Positions 2,245 to 53,063 of a stretch of 62,562 nucleotides of DNA are shown piece after piece (position 1 is the first letter of the stretch; the number at the start of each line of letters is the position of its first letter). The stretch comes from an archaeon (GTDB lineage Archaea > Thermoproteota > Nitrososphaeria > Nitrososphaerales > Gagatemarchaeaceae): assembly GCA_021791695.1 (NCBI GenBank), contig JAJYWC010000009.1, forward strand, positions 1 to 62,562, given 5' to 3'. A program made the position numbers and the translations under genes. The notes beneath the pieces were generated by a model. It searched no databases. It saw only the letters and a list, made by a program, of their open reading frames with translations, and had not been told where the DNA came from.

Positions 2245-3510
2245 ATGCAGCTCGAGGAGCTGAGCCGTTTCAACAGCTGGTGGACCGCTGGCCGCGTCAG
2301 AGCGTCTCTCGTAGAGAAGTACAGGCGGAAGCTCTACCACGACCTTAGCAAAAATCTGAAGAGAAGGCAGGCGCTCCTCATCTGGGGGATGAGGAGAGTC
2401 GGCAAGACGGTGCTGGCGCTCCAGCTGATCGATGACCTGCTGAAGACCGGCGTGGACCCGCGTTTCATTCTCTACTTCTCTTTCGACGAGGCGCCATCGG
2501 ACATGCGCGATGTCCTTGAGACCTATCAAAGGCAGGTCCTGAATGCGACATTCGAAGCGACGGAAGACAAGGTCTATGTCTTCTTCGACGAGATCGAGAA
2601 GGTGCGGGACTGGGAGAGCACGATCAAGGTCTACTACGACCTCTATCCCCATGTCAAGTTCGTTCTTACGGGGTCTGCCTCGGTCTCCCTGAGGAAGCGG
2701 TCCAGGGAGAGTCTGGCAGGAAGGATCGCGGCCTTTCTCCTCGAGCCTCTCTCCTTCGAGGAGTTCCTCGAACTCTCAGGGAAGGATGTCGGTGAGATAA
2801 GGAAGAATCCGGCGCTCTGGGACCGGGATATGGCGCCGCTCCTCAACAGGTACATGAAGTACGGCTCGTTCCCCGAACTCGTAGGTGAGGAGGACGAGGA
2901 GTACGCAAGAAACTACATCCTCAACAACGTGGTCGGGAGGGTCGTCTACAGGGATATTCCGGAGGAGTTCGGCCTGAGAGACGTGGAGCTGCTGAGGTCT
3001 CTCCTCTACGTCCTGGCCAGGAACCCAGGGGCGGTTGTGAACTACCGGGAGCTTTCCAAGAACCTGGGAAGGGACCAGAGGACGGTGTCCAACTACGTGG
3101 AGTACCTCGAGTACGGCCTCCTGGTCAGGCTCGTGTACAACTACAGGGGCAGCCCGCTTGCCAGCGCTAGGAAGATGAAGAAGGCGTACCTGGGGACCCC
3201 GAACATTGCCCTCGCGTTCGGCCCGCCCCCATCTGGCGTCACCTCAAAGCTCCTCGAGAACCTGGTGATGATGAAGACCGGTGCCAGATTCTTCTACAGG
3301 AATGCCTTCGAGGTCGATTTTGTCCTTGTGAACGATGGGACCCTGACAGGAATCGAGGTCAAGGAAAGCGAGTCGGACATCAGACAGCTCAAACTCTTCT
3401 CGAAGCACTTCCTCGGGAAGGTGGCAAAGACCATACTGGTGACGGCCGAAAGGGGCACCGCCGAGGGAGCGGAGGTCGTCCCCGCCTGGGAATTCCTTCT
3501 TGCGTCTTGA
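2245..3510 (+). CDS. AAA family ATPase with DUF4143 C-terminal domain
   Basis: A 421-residue protein of the AAA_14/DUF4143 type common in archaea and often found with toxin-antitoxin and mobile genes. Walker A is GMRRVGKT near residue 49, Walker B is VYVFFDEIEK near 110, and LTGSAS near 140 is the sensor-like motif. A winged-helix-like region (RELSKNLGRDQRTVSNYVEY) lies near residue 272. The C-terminal part with FFYRNAFEVDFVL and GIEVKESE resembles the nuclease-like DUF4143 fold. Length is usual for the family. It starts with ATG directly after a tandem repeat that may be its operator. The family is clear; the biological role is not known in general. Confidence 0.88.
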   Translation: MQLEELSRFNSWWTAGRVRASLVEKYRRKLYHDLSKNLKRRQALLIWGMRRVGKTVLALQLIDDLLKTGVDPRFILYFSFDEAPSDMRDVLETYQRQVLNATFEATEDKVYVFFDEIEKVRDWESTIKVYYDLYPHVKFVLTGSASVSLRKRSRESLAGRIAAFLLEPLSFEEFLELSGKDVGEIRKNPALWDRDMAPLLNRYMKYGSFPELVGEEDEEYARNYILNNVVGRVVYRDIPEEFGLRDVELLRSLLYVLARNPGAVVNYRELSKNLGRDQRTVSNYVEYLEYGLLVRLVYNYRGSPLASARKMKKAYLGTPNIALAFGPPPSGVTSKLLENLVMMKTGARFFYRNAFEVDFVLVNDGTLTGIEVKESESDIRQLKLFSKHFLGKVAKTILVTAERGTAEGAEVVPAWEFLLAS

Positions 3511-3546
3511 GCTTAGGACTACGTTTGCTGGTACGTCACCTTTTCT

Positions 3547-3688
3547 TCCAAAGCGACCTGACGCTCAGGAGCTCGCAAGAGTACTCCGTATTCAGAGGCC
3601 GCGGCGATCAGGGACCTCGAGATCACCCTGACCATAGAGCAAACCAGAAGCATCGGGGAGTGCTTGTTCCCCGTCAGGTCGCTTTGGA
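3547..3688. repeat. 142-base element with perfect 17-base terminal inverted repeats
   Basis: The arm TCCAAAGCGACCTGACG at 3547-3563 recurs as its exact reverse complement at 3672-3688, with 108 bases between. The element sits between two convergent genes. There is no open frame of note inside and I see no target-site duplication next to the arms. It could be a MITE-like remnant or a long-range RNA hairpin. Confidence 0.7.
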
Positions 3689-3698
3689 CACATGTCAG

Positions 3699-4301
3699 TC
3701 AGGAAGACAGCGCGCGTTCGTTCGCTGCTGGGAGCATCCTGCTGAATCTCCGTGCGAATGCAGCGGGATACCTCGCCAGATAGCCCTCCATCCTCTTCCT
3801 GTCCACGCTCTGCGCGAGCTTCCCCATCACTTCCTCCCCCGGACTCTCCCCGAAGTAGGCGAGGTCTATCAGCGTCTTCTCCAGGTCCGAGACGGGCACC
3901 ATGAAATCCCCGTAGGGAAGGTAGTCGAAGCCGAAGAAGTGCCGAGGGGCTATCCTGTGGACGACCACCCTCTGTCCCATGACCTCCCGTACCCCTGGCT
4001 TGACCTTCCCGCAGGTCACCAGGACGACGTTCGTCTCCTGTTCCCAGAGGTTCCTCATGCTGAGCGCGTCCTGAAGCCCGATATAGGCAGGCTTCAGCGC
4101 GAAGACGCTTACGACCGGGTCTGCGTGGACGCTGTACCAGCCGCGTGTTATCCTGTTAAACTCGCCGCGAGCGGTGAGGTTGTGGAGCAGCAGGAGGGCA
4201 TACCCCCTCCCTCCCGTAAGGAGCTCTACGTCGCGCGCCCTGAAGGCCGCCGTCGATCTGGCGTAGCGTCTCACCTCGTCGATGTGGACCTTCTTGCCCA
4301 T
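3699..4301 (-). CDS. AbiEi-like antitoxin / transcriptional regulator
   Basis: A 200-residue protein resembling the AbiEi family of type IV antitoxins. The N-terminal 70 residues look like a winged helix (FRARDVELLTGGRGYALLLL, then EFNRITRGWYSVHADP). The C-terminal domain has the family pattern YIGLQDALSMRNLWEQ and VSDLEKTLIDLAYF. Its start overlaps the end of the upstream nucleotidyltransferase gene by 31 bases, so the two are co-translated. In the classic AbiE operon the antitoxin gene is first; here it is second. It probably represses the shared promoter and counteracts its partner, by analogy with AbiE. Confidence 0.75.
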   Translation of the reverse strand: MGKKVHIDEVRRYARSTAAFRARDVELLTGGRGYALLLLHNLTARGEFNRITRGWYSVHADPVVSVFALKPAYIGLQDALSMRNLWEQETNVVLVTCGKVKPGVREVMGQRVVVHRIAPRHFFGFDYLPYGDFMVPVSDLEKTLIDLAYFGESPGEEVMGKLAQSVDRKRMEGYLARYPAAFARRFSRMLPAANERALSS

Positions 4302-4939
4302 CTCTCTATCCCCTCGAGCATCGCTTCCGCAGACGGCACCACACCGGCGATTATGGTCGCTCTGAGCTGTCCCGCATCTACGGGCTCGGCGTAGCTCTTT
4401 AACATCCTCGAGACTGCGGGACGGACCCTGTTACCATCCTCGACCAGGTTGAGGAGGAAGAAGACGTCGTACAGGTCCCTTACCTTCCTCCTGGAGGTGT
4501 AGGCCGCCGCCTTCTCAAGCAGGAGGTCGTCTGGCGTGAGGGTTTTCACGAGCATCAGGGTCCCGTCCAGCACCTCGTACGCCCTGACGACACTCGCGGG
4601 CGGTCCCCTGAGCGCCGCCTCGAAACTGACCACGACCCCACCTGCCTCGTACTTTCCGAAGACCGTGTTCTCGGTAGTCTTGTACTCGAGCTCCTTCATA
4701 CCCTTGGCGGCGAGCCCGCTCCTGAAGCGGGCGGACCCGACTGCTTCGTCGACCGGGAGGTAGACACCGATGTCCTCGGAGAACCTGCCTCCGCCGTAGC
4801 ACCTCCAGATGGCTGTCCCACCGTGCAGCACGCACTCCGGAAAGGCGTCGTATGCCTCCGAGACTATTGTGTCCTGGGCCAGGGCCACAGAGATATGCGC
4901 CCTCCTCCTCAATCTGGCTGCCAGGGGCGTGCCTCTCAT
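4271..4939 (-). CDS. AbiEii-like nucleotidyltransferase (type IV toxin family)
   Basis: A 222-residue nucleotidyltransferase of the AbiEii/AbiGii group. The signature HGGTAIWRCYGGGRFSEDIG lies near residue 39, and the family motif RRKVRDLYDVFFLL is near residue 150. In the usual family motif SEDIDF or SEDLDF the second aspartate of the DxD pair binds metal. Here that position is glycine (codon GGT at about 4769-4771), so catalysis may be lost. A strong TATA box lies 25-35 bases upstream of the ATG. It is first in a two-gene operon with the AbiEi-like gene, the reverse of the usual order. The family call is firm; toxicity is untested and the motif change argues for caution. Confidence 0.78.
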   Translation of the reverse strand: MRGTPLAARLRRRAHISVALAQDTIVSEAYDAFPECVLHGGTAIWRCYGGGRFSEDIGVYLPVDEAVGSARFRSGLAAKGMKELEYKTTENTVFGKYEAGGVVVSFEAALRGPPASVVRAYEVLDGTLMLVKTLTPDDLLLEKAAAYTSRRKVRDLYDVFFLLNLVEDGNRVRPAVSRMLKSYAEPVDAGQLRATIIAGVVPSAEAMLEGIERWARRSTSTR

Positions 4940-49731: not shown

Positions 49732-50670
49732 ATGGCGACCAAAGCCAAGCATGGGACGACAAAGGCAATTCGTGTAAAGTCTGAATCACGAATCAAGGTC
49801 CCTGTAACGTCGGGTGCTCCGGCATCCGAGGAGCCTCGCTCCACCGCGGCGCCCGGCAGCATCCCAAGGACCAACCAGCTAAGCACGGCTTCACATTCCG
49901 CGACCGTGAACACCACCACAGGAGTTCCTATAACAAGGCCAGCTTCTAGCGTTTCAACTGCGACAAAGACTATAGAGGTGGGCCCGACCGAGGCGAAACT
50001 CCCTACGATCGCGAAGACGGCTTTCGCTGACTCACAACCAAAGCAGACCCAGAAGCCGGCAGGACAGGTTGCGAGGGCTGCTAATGGTGTCCAGATGGTC
50101 GGTAAGACAGCTGCAAGGGGACAGACGGTCACCCGAATGGTGCCTATTCAAGTTCAGCCTGGACAGACGGTGAGAGTCGTCAGGACCACCGCGAGACCCA
50201 TGAGCAACCCAAAGAAGCTCATGCTCGCTGCCATTCCTGGTTTCTTCGGCCTCATGGGCCTTTCTCAGCTTTACCAGGGAAAAAGGACAAAGGGCCTAGC
50301 CTTCTTCATAGGTGGAGTCCTCGCTAGCTTCCTCTCTTCATGGTACATCATTATCCCGTCGCGCTTCGAGGCGCTTGCGACCAAAGGTGCCATGCTCTCT
50401 CCTTACGCTATCTCGTTCTTCTCTTCGATGAACATCAACGCGTCGCTCGCGGGCAAGCTTTCTGTAGACCTGATGGGAGTGGTGGTCGCACTCTGGGGAC
50501 TCCAGCTATTCGACGCGATGGGACCGTTCATCAGCAAGCAGACCGTCGCAGTGATCACCTCGGCCGTGGGTCAAAAGGTCACGGTACCGCTGCCAACGGT
50601 AAGGCGTGCAATCGCAGCGGCACCTAATCCTACGTTCTCTGCCACAGCGGAACACAAGCCCTCGGTGTAG
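49732..50670 (+). CDS. Membrane protein with disordered N-terminus and TM2-like core
   Basis: A 312-residue protein. The first 155 residues are Thr/Ala/Pro-rich and basic, probably disordered. The hydrophobic core begins KLMLAAIPGFFGLMGLSQLY and continues QGKRTKGLAFFIGGVLASFL, which is like the TM2 domain (G-GLHRFY... type hairpin). A third segment, LMGVVVALWGLQLFDAM, follows, then a basic tail. TM2-type proteins have no defined enzymatic role. It is followed by the glycosyltransferase gene after 28 bases and may share its transcript. Confidence 0.55.
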   Translation: MATKAKHGTTKAIRVKSESRIKVPVTSGAPASEEPRSTAAPGSIPRTNQLSTASHSATVNTTTGVPITRPASSVSTATKTIEVGPTEAKLPTIAKTAFADSQPKQTQKPAGQVARAANGVQMVGKTAARGQTVTRMVPIQVQPGQTVRVVRTTARPMSNPKKLMLAAIPGFFGLMGLSQLYQGKRTKGLAFFIGGVLASFLSSWYIIIPSRFEALATKGAMLSPYAISFFSSMNINASLAGKLSVDLMGVVVALWGLQLFDAMGPFISKQTVAVITSAVGQKVTVPLPTVRRAIAAAPNPTFSATAEHKPSV

Positions 50671-50698
50671 ACGCAGGCAAAGAACTCGGGGTCCATAA

Positions 50699-52579
50699 TT
50701 GAAGATCGCTATCTGCACACACATGAGTCTCTCCTACATGGGAGGAGGGGAGCGCGAGATGTGCGAGCTGGCGAACGAGCTTCAGGACCGGGGGCACGAG
50801 GTTGAATTCTACGCGCTACCGTTCACGATGGGAGCGATGAGGAAGGTCGACCCGCGCCGGGTTCTGAACGGCATTCCCTATTCCGAATCCTGGACGCATA
50901 AGGTCAGCGCGGACGTCGCGTACACATTCTATCATCCCCTTTCCTCGTTGAATTTCAGAGTTAGAGGCAGGAAGATAGCCTCCTTCCATTCCCAGGCATT
51001 CTTTCTCAGGTCGATCAGCCCGAGTTATGGCCTCGTCCCTGCCGTCGCCTCCTACGGGACGAGGATTATCGGACCGATTGAACTCCGGACATTCGATGCC
51101 ATCCACACGCACTTCCCGCAACCTACGATAAAGCACAGGAACACCTACATCATACCGGGATGGGTCGACACGAACGTCTTCAAGCCGGCCTCGGCCAAGT
51201 ACGACCAGTTCACCGTCTTGTTTTCGGGCAGGGCACTTTGGCAAAAAGGATGGGACATCTACGTCAAGCTGGCAAGGCGCATGAAAGAGCTCGGGATCCG
51301 GTTCCTCTACGTGGGAGGCGACGCCAAGGACGCCGTAATCCAGAGCCTGGGGTTCCAGTGGAATGCATCGGCGCTTTCGCAGATCTACAACCGCTCGCAC
51401 GTGCTCATGAACCCGGTGAGGGTGGACACCTTCGGAAGGGTCGCTATAGAGTCGATGGCGTGCGTTCCTTATGACACGCTGGTCTCGTCGCCGTCGTCAA
51501 TCGTCAAGAAGCACACCAGATTGCACAACGGCACCGTCGTCACGGTAGAGACGGAGAGCGGAAACTCGCTGACCCTGACTCCAAATCACCCCCTGTTGAC
51601 GACGCGAGGATGGGTTCCCGGGGGGCTCTTAGCAAGAGACGACATGTTGGCAACCACGGATGAGTCGTCCTTGGTAGGAGAAAGAATTGGAGATATCGTT
51701 GAAATAAAGGAACTTGCACACGATGGACGAGATAGCCAGGCATCATGGCAGGGTGGTCCAGAACGCCGGACATTGGGCGTACCCATCAGGCTGCAACAAG
51801 ACTCTCCCACGGATGAAATCCCTGTCCTACCGGTTTATGGAAACGGAGCGGTCCTACTTGGCGGGGACGGTGGACGGCGAAGGGACGATCGGACTGAAGA
51901 GGTGGCATGGCGGCAAGAGTCGTCCGGGCGTCGCACCTCCTATCTTGACTTGGCTCAGTGCTATACTCAGCGGCCCTTCAGCTCGGGCGCGACAGTGGCG
52001 GAGCGGGGGACACCATCTGTTCGTTGCGACGGGCTACACGAATCGCTATCCACTCTCGAAGGCTCTTCAACCCTGTCTGGTGTTAAAGCCCGGGCATTGC
52101 AAAGCAATGCTGAAATTCATGGAGGAAGGCATGAGTCTGCCAGTCAGGGCTCCTCCGGAGAGGTGACTAGAGCTCTTAGTGTATATCCGACCGCCAAATT
52201 TGAAACCATCACATCAATCAGGTACGAGACCGCCCGGGACCTTAGAGTCTATAATCTGACCACGCTCGAGGGTCACTACTCGGCAAACGGAATTATCGTA
52301 CACAACTGTGGAACCCCCGTCGTCACCACCCCCTCCGTTGCCCACGTCGGCCTCAACCTCCCGTTCGTCTTTGGGAACACGGTCGACGAGTATGAGGAGT
52401 CGCTGGTCCGTCTCAAGAGGCTCTGGGAGGATGGTAAGCCGTACCGCAGACTCTCGCGAAGATGCAACGAAGCTGCCCAGGCATTCTCTTTCAAGAATAC
52501 GGCCACCGATTACGAGAAGATGTTCAATGAGGTGGCGAACGGGCTCCCGCCGACAGCCGGCATGCGGGCGCCACTATGA
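50699..52579 (+). CDS. Family 4 glycosyltransferase interrupted by an intein
   Basis: A 626-codon gene; removing a 282-residue intein leaves 344 residues of a GT4-type glycosyltransferase with two Rossmann-like halves. The acceptor half opens MKIAICTHMSLSYMGGGERE. The donor half has VLFSGRALWQKGWDIYVKLA, LNPVRVDTFGRVAIESMA, and, after the intein, CGTPVVTTPS. The E-x7-E type motif is therefore split right at its MA|CGTPVV core, and the enzyme depends on splicing. The TTG start at 50699 gives a normal N-terminus. It probably makes surface glycans; the neighbouring DUF2079 protein fits that. A different-frame endonuclease gene lies inside the intein. Confidence 0.9.
   Translation: MKIAICTHMSLSYMGGGEREMCELANELQDRGHEVEFYALPFTMGAMRKVDPRRVLNGIPYSESWTHKVSADVAYTFYHPLSSLNFRVRGRKIASFHSQAFFLRSISPSYGLVPAVASYGTRIIGPIELRTFDAIHTHFPQPTIKHRNTYIIPGWVDTNVFKPASAKYDQFTVLFSGRALWQKGWDIYVKLARRMKELGIRFLYVGGDAKDAVIQSLGFQWNASALSQIYNRSHVLMNPVRVDTFGRVAIESMACVPYDTLVSSPSSIVKKHTRLHNGTVVTVETESGNSLTLTPNHPLLTTRGWVPGGLLARDDMLATTDESSLVGERIGDIVEIKELAHDGRDSQASWQGGPERRTLGVPIRLQQDSPTDEIPVLPVYGNGAVLLGGDGGRRRDDRTEEVAWRQESSGRRTSYLDLAQCYTQRPFSSGATVAERGTPSVRCDGLHESLSTLEGSSTLSGVKARALQSNAEIHGGRHESASQGSSGEVTRALSVYPTAKFETITSIRYETARDLRVYNLTTLEGHYSANGIIVHNCGTPVVTTPSVAHVGLNLPFVFGNTVDEYEESLVRLKRLWEDGKPYRRLSRRCNEAAQAFSFKNTATDYEKMFNEVANGLPPTAGMRAPL
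51461..52306 (+). other. Intein in the glycosyltransferase (282 residues), splicing domain only in frame
   Basis: It begins with Cys1 (CVPYDTLVSSPSSIVKKH) and ends HYSANGIIVHN before Cys+1. Block B is LTLTPNHPLLTTRGWVPGG and block F is LRVYNLTTLEGHYSANG, so both splicing halves are complete. The in-frame middle, about residues 345-490 of the precursor, matches nothing and looks like out-of-frame translation. In the +1 frame the same DNA encodes a LAGLIDADG endonuclease. Confidence 0.88.
51723..52166 (+). CDS. LAGLIDADG homing endonuclease nested out of frame in the intein
   Basis: A 147-residue frame wholly inside the glycosyltransferase intein, in the +1 frame. It contains one LAGLIDADG motif, SYLAGTVDGEGTIGLKRW (bases about 51852-51905), and a typical helical end, LQPCLVLKPGHCKAMLKFME. 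One motif and this length fit a homodimeric enzyme. It has its own ATG (51723; TTG 51714 is nearer to an AAAGGA) and its own TGA, after which the intein frame resumes recognisable splicing sequence. It would cut the intein-less allele and so spread the intein. Two compensating frameshifts are the alternative, but the stop codon exactly at the domain end favours an independent gene. Confidence 0.72.
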   Translation: MDEIARHHGRVVQNAGHWAYPSGCNKTLPRMKSLSYRFMETERSYLAGTVDGEGTIGLKRWHGGKSRPGVAPPILTWLSAILSGPSARARQWRSGGHHLFVATGYTNRYPLSKALQPCLVLKPGHCKAMLKFMEEGMSLPVRAPPER

Positions 52580-52599
52580 TCACGAGTCCACCCCGATCC

Positions 52600-53063
52600 C
52601 GAAGCACCCGAGGAGATTCTACCGATGTGAGGCAAGAGTATAGGAAGTTGGTCTGGTCATGAAGGACACGGGCTCCGCCCGAAAGCCGCCATCTGATAGC
52701 AGAACAGGCTGTCGGTGGGAAGCCTGAGACTAATCTCTGCTCCGACCTTCTTGCGAGACTATACATCGGTGAGATGCTGTAAGTCTTTGCTCCTGAAAAC
52801 TGTGAGTTCATCTCACGAAAGAGTTAGCGCCTAGTCAAAGGATGCTCCCCGCCGTACGGCCATGCCCAGGCCGAAAGACATCGACACATCGAAGACGTCC
52901 ACGTCAGTTTCAAACAAGTCCGCTTCGAGAAATCGTGTCTCGAGACCGCCGGCCGAGAAGACCTCTTCGCCTGGGACACGGGGACGGGGCTTGAGTCTAC
53001 CAGCGTCACGTGCGCGCCGCGCCTGGCGAGAAGATGCTCCCGTGTTGGCGGAGGATCGCCCGC
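52600..53063 (-). pseudogene. Decayed SAM-dependent methyltransferase
   Basis: On the minus strand, pieces in different frames line up with a class I methyltransferase: LLARRGAR, then VTLVDSSPVPVSQAKR (frame starting near 53009), then GLETRFLEADLFETDVDVFD, ending at a TAG at 52833. Downstream, ARVLHDQTNFLYSCLT (about 52620-52670) may be its remains. The nucleotide-binding and acidic-loop pieces are recognisable but in shifted frames, so the gene is dead or badly read. Confidence 0.45.

Follow-up and report, generated by a model that had tools for sequence, protein, structure and literature searches.

A 62,562-nucleotide stretch of an archaeal genome of the Gagatemarchaeaceae (contig JAJYWC010000009.1; hereafter the window) carries a glycosyltransferase gene (50699-52579; all window features discussed lie on the plus strand) interrupted by an intein (51461-52306), the middle of which encodes, in the +1 frame relative to the host gene, an endonuclease of the LAGLIDADG family (51723-52166). 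We conclude with high confidence that this is a splicing intein in which an independent overlapping gene, and not an in-frame fusion, encodes the homing endonuclease. The conclusion is carried by a full set of splicing residues in the host frame, by homology of the +1 frame to endonucleases at six further loci with the same architecture, and by codon-level avoidance of host-frame stops across all seven.

The Host Gene and Its Intein

The host gene encodes a GT-B (GT4-type) glycosyltransferase (Pfam PF00534, E 3.3e-7; PF13692, E 6.5e-7), and its exteins, at 50699-51460 and 52307-52576, flank an insertion that splits the conserved ESMA|CGTPVV motif of the gene product. Joined end to end, the flanks read IESMACGTPVVTT and reproduce the sequence of an intein-less ortholog from the same genus (L010; IESMACGTPVVAS), which is 76% identical and retains an uninterrupted IESMACGTPVV site. 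Judged from its sequence, the insertion is a complete intein of 282 residues (Cys1 to Asn282, with Cys as the +1 residue), and it is predicted to splice: Pfam Intein_splicing (E 8.9e-8), TIGR01445 and TIGR01443 all match the host open reading frame (ORF) at its N- and C-terminal intein regions, and every residue required for splicing is found, namely Cys1 in CVPYDTLV, the TPNH of block B (TPNHPLLTTRGW), and, at the C-terminal end (GHYSANGIIVHN), the VHN just before the Cys of CGTPVV.

Both splicing halves lie in the host frame, the N-terminal one with blocks A and B at 51461-51694 and the C-terminal one with blocks F and G and VHN|C at 52166-52306 (TIGR01443). In a structure model of this frame the N-terminal 78 and C-terminal 47 intein residues are predicted with confidence and fold as Hint halves, Foldseek returns inteins and hedgehog proteins as the top matches (best E 9.6e-4), and a profile built from the seven nested-endonuclease inteins described below matches solved inteins at 7e-14. 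Between the halves, residues 79-235 (51695-52165) form an open filler with no conserved protein in the host frame; they are predicted to be disordered (predicted local distance difference test, pLDDT, ~30), and a hidden Markov model (HMM) of related endonucleases scores -2.6 bits on them. A previous sequence-only reading of this DNA had described the splicing blocks as complete in the host frame and the middle as meaningless in it, and both descriptions hold.

The +1-Frame Endonuclease and Its Relatives

In the +1 frame the filler is read as a 147-residue ORF from ATG 51723 (alternatively TTG 51714) to TGA 52164-52166, which slightly corrects the earlier right-hand boundary. Its motif YLAGTVDGEG (51855-51884) keeps the acidic residues in what are invariant columns of a 40-sequence alignment. 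The ORF alone has no significant match in Pfam, NCBIfam or PDB searches, so that its identity came only by way of relatives: an HMM of six related nested endonucleases scores it at 34.8 bits (6.5e-13), whereas 200 shuffles reach no more than 0.2 bits, and the phrog_5046 endonuclease matches it at E 4.7e-4. Codon-usage likelihood along the intein favors frame 0 over the N-terminal splicing half, then the +1 frame, then frame 0 again. With a model of the endonuclease, the 46 best Foldseek matches are I-CreI-type LAGLIDADG enzymes, at weak E values of at least 0.18. By descent, then, the homology identifies the +1 frame as coding for an I-CreI-type, single-motif LAGLIDADG endonuclease, and this part of the earlier description of a 147-residue enzyme stands.

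A phylum-wide tblastn search with the +1 ORF led to another glycosyltransferase intein (L015, E 2e-6) with an intact 241-residue endonuclease ORF out of frame with its intein, and alignment-based scans of viral contigs together with an automatic detector added L036, L053, L061, L082 and L088. These scans succeeded where single-sequence queries, using the endonucleases of the window, L015 and L036, had brought no new loci from viral contigs, phages and plasmids. The six further loci, one in an archaeal genome and five on IMG/VR contigs, all carry full-length endonucleases, and the family profile matches the I-CreI and I-MsoI structures at 6e-28 to 1e-14. By Pfam their hosts are glycosyltransferases and, for L082 and L088, DUF2201 metallopeptidase/VWA proteins, with Hint/intein regions confirmed; the seven loci together span four insertion sites (L036 shares that of the window), two host-protein families and a G+C content of 38-63%. 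At seven of seven the endonuclease lies in the +1 frame of the host and ends before the intein does. It starts ~6-21 codons after block B in the relatives, every intact member having an in-frame ATG near the domain start at a similar place, and in L015, L082 and L088 its stop lies 8-11 bases short of the intein end, thus overlapping the C-terminal splicing blocks. The refuting condition set by the earlier reading, relatives with the endonuclease in the intein frame, is contradicted, as the homologous inteins all have theirs in +1. The overlap, earlier offered as a possible real gene arrangement, is shown to be real and old by intact copies at no fewer than six other loci.

A single clade for the seven endonucleases is not rejected (approximately unbiased test, p-AU 0.618), which is consistent with an old, inherited arrangement; since one clade is not rejected, the arrangement may have a single inherited origin, and the seven loci are not seven independent tests. 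Weak phylum tblastn matches L016-L018 proved on inspection not to be relatives, and two further LAGLIDADG matches in the window's genome and eight in the phylum have no overlapping intein. LAGLIDADG-type sequences of the window's own genome at G000:C25:4276-4608 (L221) and G000:C73:4538-4840 (L223) both lie outside inteins. The L053 endonuclease (3830-4603) has two apparent N-terminal Myb-like repeats matching phrog_323 and phrog_1891, which suggests, at the level of sequence, DNA-binding modules shuffled with HNH homing enzymes.

Selection in Two Frames

Constraint on both frames, as proposed earlier for the window, is visible in codon choice. When the endonuclease protein is held fixed, its synonymous codons are permuted and host-frame stops are counted, 4-17 stops are expected per endonuclease ORF, whereas all seven are free of them (window, P 0.0056; other six, at most 0.001, the lowest below 2e-4); among non-nested relatives, 0 of 121 are stop-free in the corresponding frame, with a mean of 17 stops. 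Host codons are composed of (c3, d1, d2) of successive endonuclease codons, and in this register a host-frame stop requires a T-ending endonuclease codon before AA, AG or GA. The ratio of T to C endings in that context is 0:114 pooled over the loci, compared with 285:206 elsewhere (Fisher p=2.5e-37), and 0:11 in the window alone.

Substitutions between L082 and L088 further show that the selected frame switches at the endonuclease, with both frames constrained where the functions overlap: the values at host codon positions 1/2/3 are.32/.32/.65 upstream of the endonuclease and.56/.41/.26 inside it, changing to.31/.20/.40 across the C-terminal splicing blocks. The genetic code offers a rationale for the choice of frame, in that both frames can stay open because each T-ending codon that causes a host stop has a C-ending synonym. 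Accordingly, +1 overlaps can be cleared of host stops by synonymous choice in 71 of 71 relatives and +2 overlaps in only 15% of the 71, while among antisense frames only the in-register one is always clearable. The +1 preference is nonetheless a tendency and no law, as the published ShiLan HNH insertion, discussed below, sits in the third frame.

Probable Decay of the Window Endonuclease

The sequence-only reading had also credited the 147-residue enzyme with its own start and with its own stop at the domain end, which is not supported. Relatives begin at a position corresponding to ATG 51660, and the remnant 5' end of the gene (51660-51722), by weak homology probably a Myb-like region, is broken by TAG 51675 and TAA 51705. 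At the other end TGA 52164 is premature: family homology continues beyond it through a remnant 3' end (52164-52215, LELLVYIRPPN), the match reaching 52217, and the score of the six-relative HMM on the window rises from 34.8 to 39.3 bits once the ORF flanks are added. The ancestral gene probably began at ATG 51660 and extended past TGA 52164. Compared with the six relatives, the window copy lacks an intact N-terminal Myb-like region, the beta1/beta2 region that follows the LAGLIDADG helix, and the C-terminus; the beta1/beta2 segment, which the relatives keep in the alignment, is missing or unpredicted in the window model, and a complete alpha-beta-beta-alpha-beta-beta-alpha core is not found there.

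It is unlikely that the ORF is instead a short functional variant that does without a Myb-like region and a portion of the beta sheet. The acidic LAGLIDADG residues are intact, AAGGA stands 11 bases upstream of ATG 51723, and 147 residues is near the size of I-CreI (163 residues); on the other hand, the beta1/beta2 region that is missing or unpredicted forms the DNA-binding saddle in this fold, homology runs beyond the stop codon, and the window copy sits on one of the longest branches of the tree (2.26 vs. a median of 0.71). We therefore regard the window endonuclease as probably a decaying copy that has probably lost its activity, next to a splicing frame that has been kept intact. In the homing cycle the nuclease decays after fixation and the splicing frame has to persist, and the window fits this cycle.

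Proposed Mechanism and Alternative Explanations

In light of the anatomy, the frame relation, the homology and the two-frame constraint, we propose a cycle of splicing, internal initiation, empty-allele cleavage and homing. The host ribosome would read frame 0 through extein, intein and extein, after which the Hint halves would splice, with the intein middle, as its sequence and model suggest, behaving as an inert loop. The endonuclease would be a separate product, probably arising by internal initiation at a start codon that closely follows the N-terminal splicing half, and, as expected from its family, would dimerize like I-CreI and cut the empty allele, into which the intein would then be copied. 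In the window, by comparison with the relatives, the endonuclease appears to have since decayed, presumably losing activity, with the splicing frame retained.

A quite improbable variant of this scheme keeps the architecture and has the endonuclease produced as an intein-endonuclease fusion by programmed ribosomal frameshifting, with no start of its own. All cases stand in the same +1 relation, reachable by one +1 shift, and a Shine-Dalgarno sequence is unclear in four of seven; set against this, an in-frame ATG lies close to the domain start in every intact member, and a frameshifted product would terminate where the endonuclease does, without the C-terminal splicing half. Several observations count against the independent overlapping gene that we favor. 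Shine-Dalgarno-like sequences are clear at only three of the seven starts (AAGGA in the window, GGAG in L053, AAGGGG in L082) and not in L015, L036, L061 or L088; the window has the weakest two-frame signal of the seven (P 0.0056), as is expected of a decayed copy; and a search for close relatives of the window's own intein found none, which precludes a direct estimate of selection.

Three further explanations were each tested and rejected. Two single-base errors that offset each other, one close to 51715 and one close to 52166, would give a normal intein with an in-frame endonuclease the same look in one sequence, and the window assembly is indeed a metagenome-type draft (77 contigs, 72% complete); such errors are very improbable here, given that the +1 ORF is flanked by its own stops (TAA 51705 and TGA 52164) and that errors could not produce the synonymous avoidance of host-frame stops (0:11 and 0:114), and for the class they are refuted by the same +1 relation on six independent contigs. 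Equally improbable is a self-splicing RNA intron located inside the intein, with the overlap of protein frames being incidental: related non-nested endonucleases of viral contigs often sit in intron-like insertions, but no Rfam family matches 50600-52700 (E up to 0.1) or, with gathering scores as the cutoff, any of the six other loci, the host frame is uninterrupted along its whole length with stops avoided, which an intron would not require, and in L015, L082 and L088 the endonuclease reaches into the C-terminal splicing blocks. Finally, a frame left open by chance across a low-complexity intein linker, its LAGLIDADG-like motif being accidental, a reading to which the lack of Pfam or NCBIfam matches for the ORF alone might point, has next to no probability in view of codon usage, the HMM score relative to shuffles (6.5e-13), the phrog_5046 match (4.7e-4) and, decisively, homology to the out-of-frame ORF of another intein (tblastn E 2e-6).

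Relation to Known Elements

According to reviews, intein endonucleases are fused in frame (PMC3943268). Canonical large inteins with an in-frame LAGLIDADG (DOD) endonuclease, such as PI-SceI and PI-PfuI, likewise place it between the Hint halves, from block B to block F, whereas the endonuclease of all seven loci has a gene of its own, with a single motif and in a different frame. I-CreI and I-MsoI of group I introns share the domain, by profile, and the fold, and are likewise separate polypeptides; however, their introns are removed as RNA, while the nested endonucleases overlap a translated frame whose protein would be spliced, and most of the latter carry an N-terminal Myb-like region, unlike I-CreI and I-MsoI.

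The closest published element, ShiLan, is not an intein; like similar insertions, it places an HNH endonuclease out of frame inside a phage methylase (Arsenault, Gosselin, Gogarten 2025, PMC11855218). As in the nested inteins, a mobile endonuclease gene is hidden in another frame with the host frame open; ShiLan differs in that its nuclease is HNH and lies in the third frame, not LAGLIDADG in the second, and in that neither intein nor intron splicing signals turned up and the insertion is thought to remain in the protein, whereas the window has intein blocks. The sections consulted of PMC11855218 contain no codon-level two-frame selection test. A literature text search turned up no account of an intein whose endonuclease lies out of frame; it did not cover the Gosselin et al. 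2025 preprint (doi 10.1101/2025.01.02.630785) on actinobacteriophage inteins of "non-canonical architecture", which by its title is possibly related.

An intein called a "mini-intein" or one with a degenerate linker may thus be a mobile element, its nuclease having escaped annotation of the intein frame alone. A mobility enzyme and a splicing protein sharing the same DNA in two frames, with measurable constraint, also offer a natural test of overlapping-gene evolution, both in the choice of frame and in what follows fixation, when the nuclease frame decays and the other must stay intact.

Antisense and Other Overlapping Endonucleases

A second class turned up on the opposite strand, with nucleases that by sequence resemble Vsr/EDxHD enzymes and lie antisense, in codon register, inside phage head-protein inteins. 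Its first member, L002, from a Chloroflexi metagenome-assembled genome and found with the window's intein, has a minor head protein intein at 3001-3996 and a nuclease ORF at 3025-4605 on the minus strand. With this nuclease as query, viral contigs yielded 14 loci, the majority of which are clearly antisense to inteins of minor head proteins (L224-L235 among the class). Nine of the 14 members align to Pfam REase MTES_1575 (best 1.9e-6), and there is a weak match (E 0.15) to the mobile-intron protein structure 3r3p, which we take to be the EDxHD enzyme I-Bth0305I. The nucleases are in codon register at 11 of 11 checked loci, and their third position is more variable than the first in 50 of 55 (nonindependent) pairs. 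This evidence is less clean than that for the +1 class, because in-register antisense frames partly mirror sense-frame conservation. In the cultured phages Affeca (L238), PhiSTP2 (L239) and Malisha (L240), the nuclease is antisense to minor capsid or gene-5 reading frames.

On balance we lean toward a general class of overlapping-endonuclease inteins, in which unrelated nucleases occupy either always-clearable frame (LAGLIDADG in sense +1, seven of seven; Vsr/EDxHD-like antisense in register, 11 of 11 checked), nuclease production is uncoupled from the spliced protein, and the frames follow from the genetic code.

Other overlaps occur outside recognizable inteins. In phage DNA methylases (L133 2321-2959, L135 2453-2962, L139 2126-2959), from the Gordonia phages Ailee and Sedona and the Mycobacterium phage DotProduct, a LAGLIDADG endonuclease lies in the +1 frame of an open host frame that has no intein blocks, making these insertions the LAGLIDADG counterpart of the ShiLan element; in Ailee the endonuclease is annotated as gene 5 within a two-piece gene 4. 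Single-motif LAGLIDADG ORFs are also found antisense to long open frames in L044, L045, L046, L050, L051, L094, L118, L129, L182, L195 and L207. The antisense open frames of L044, L045, L094, L118 and others, the four named having no Rfam match, were excluded because they likely reflect introns or arrangements of host genes. In L044-L046, L050 and L051 the open frame opposite the endonuclease ends in a capsid-like protein, which suggests insertions of an intron-like kind that bear their endonuclease on the other strand.
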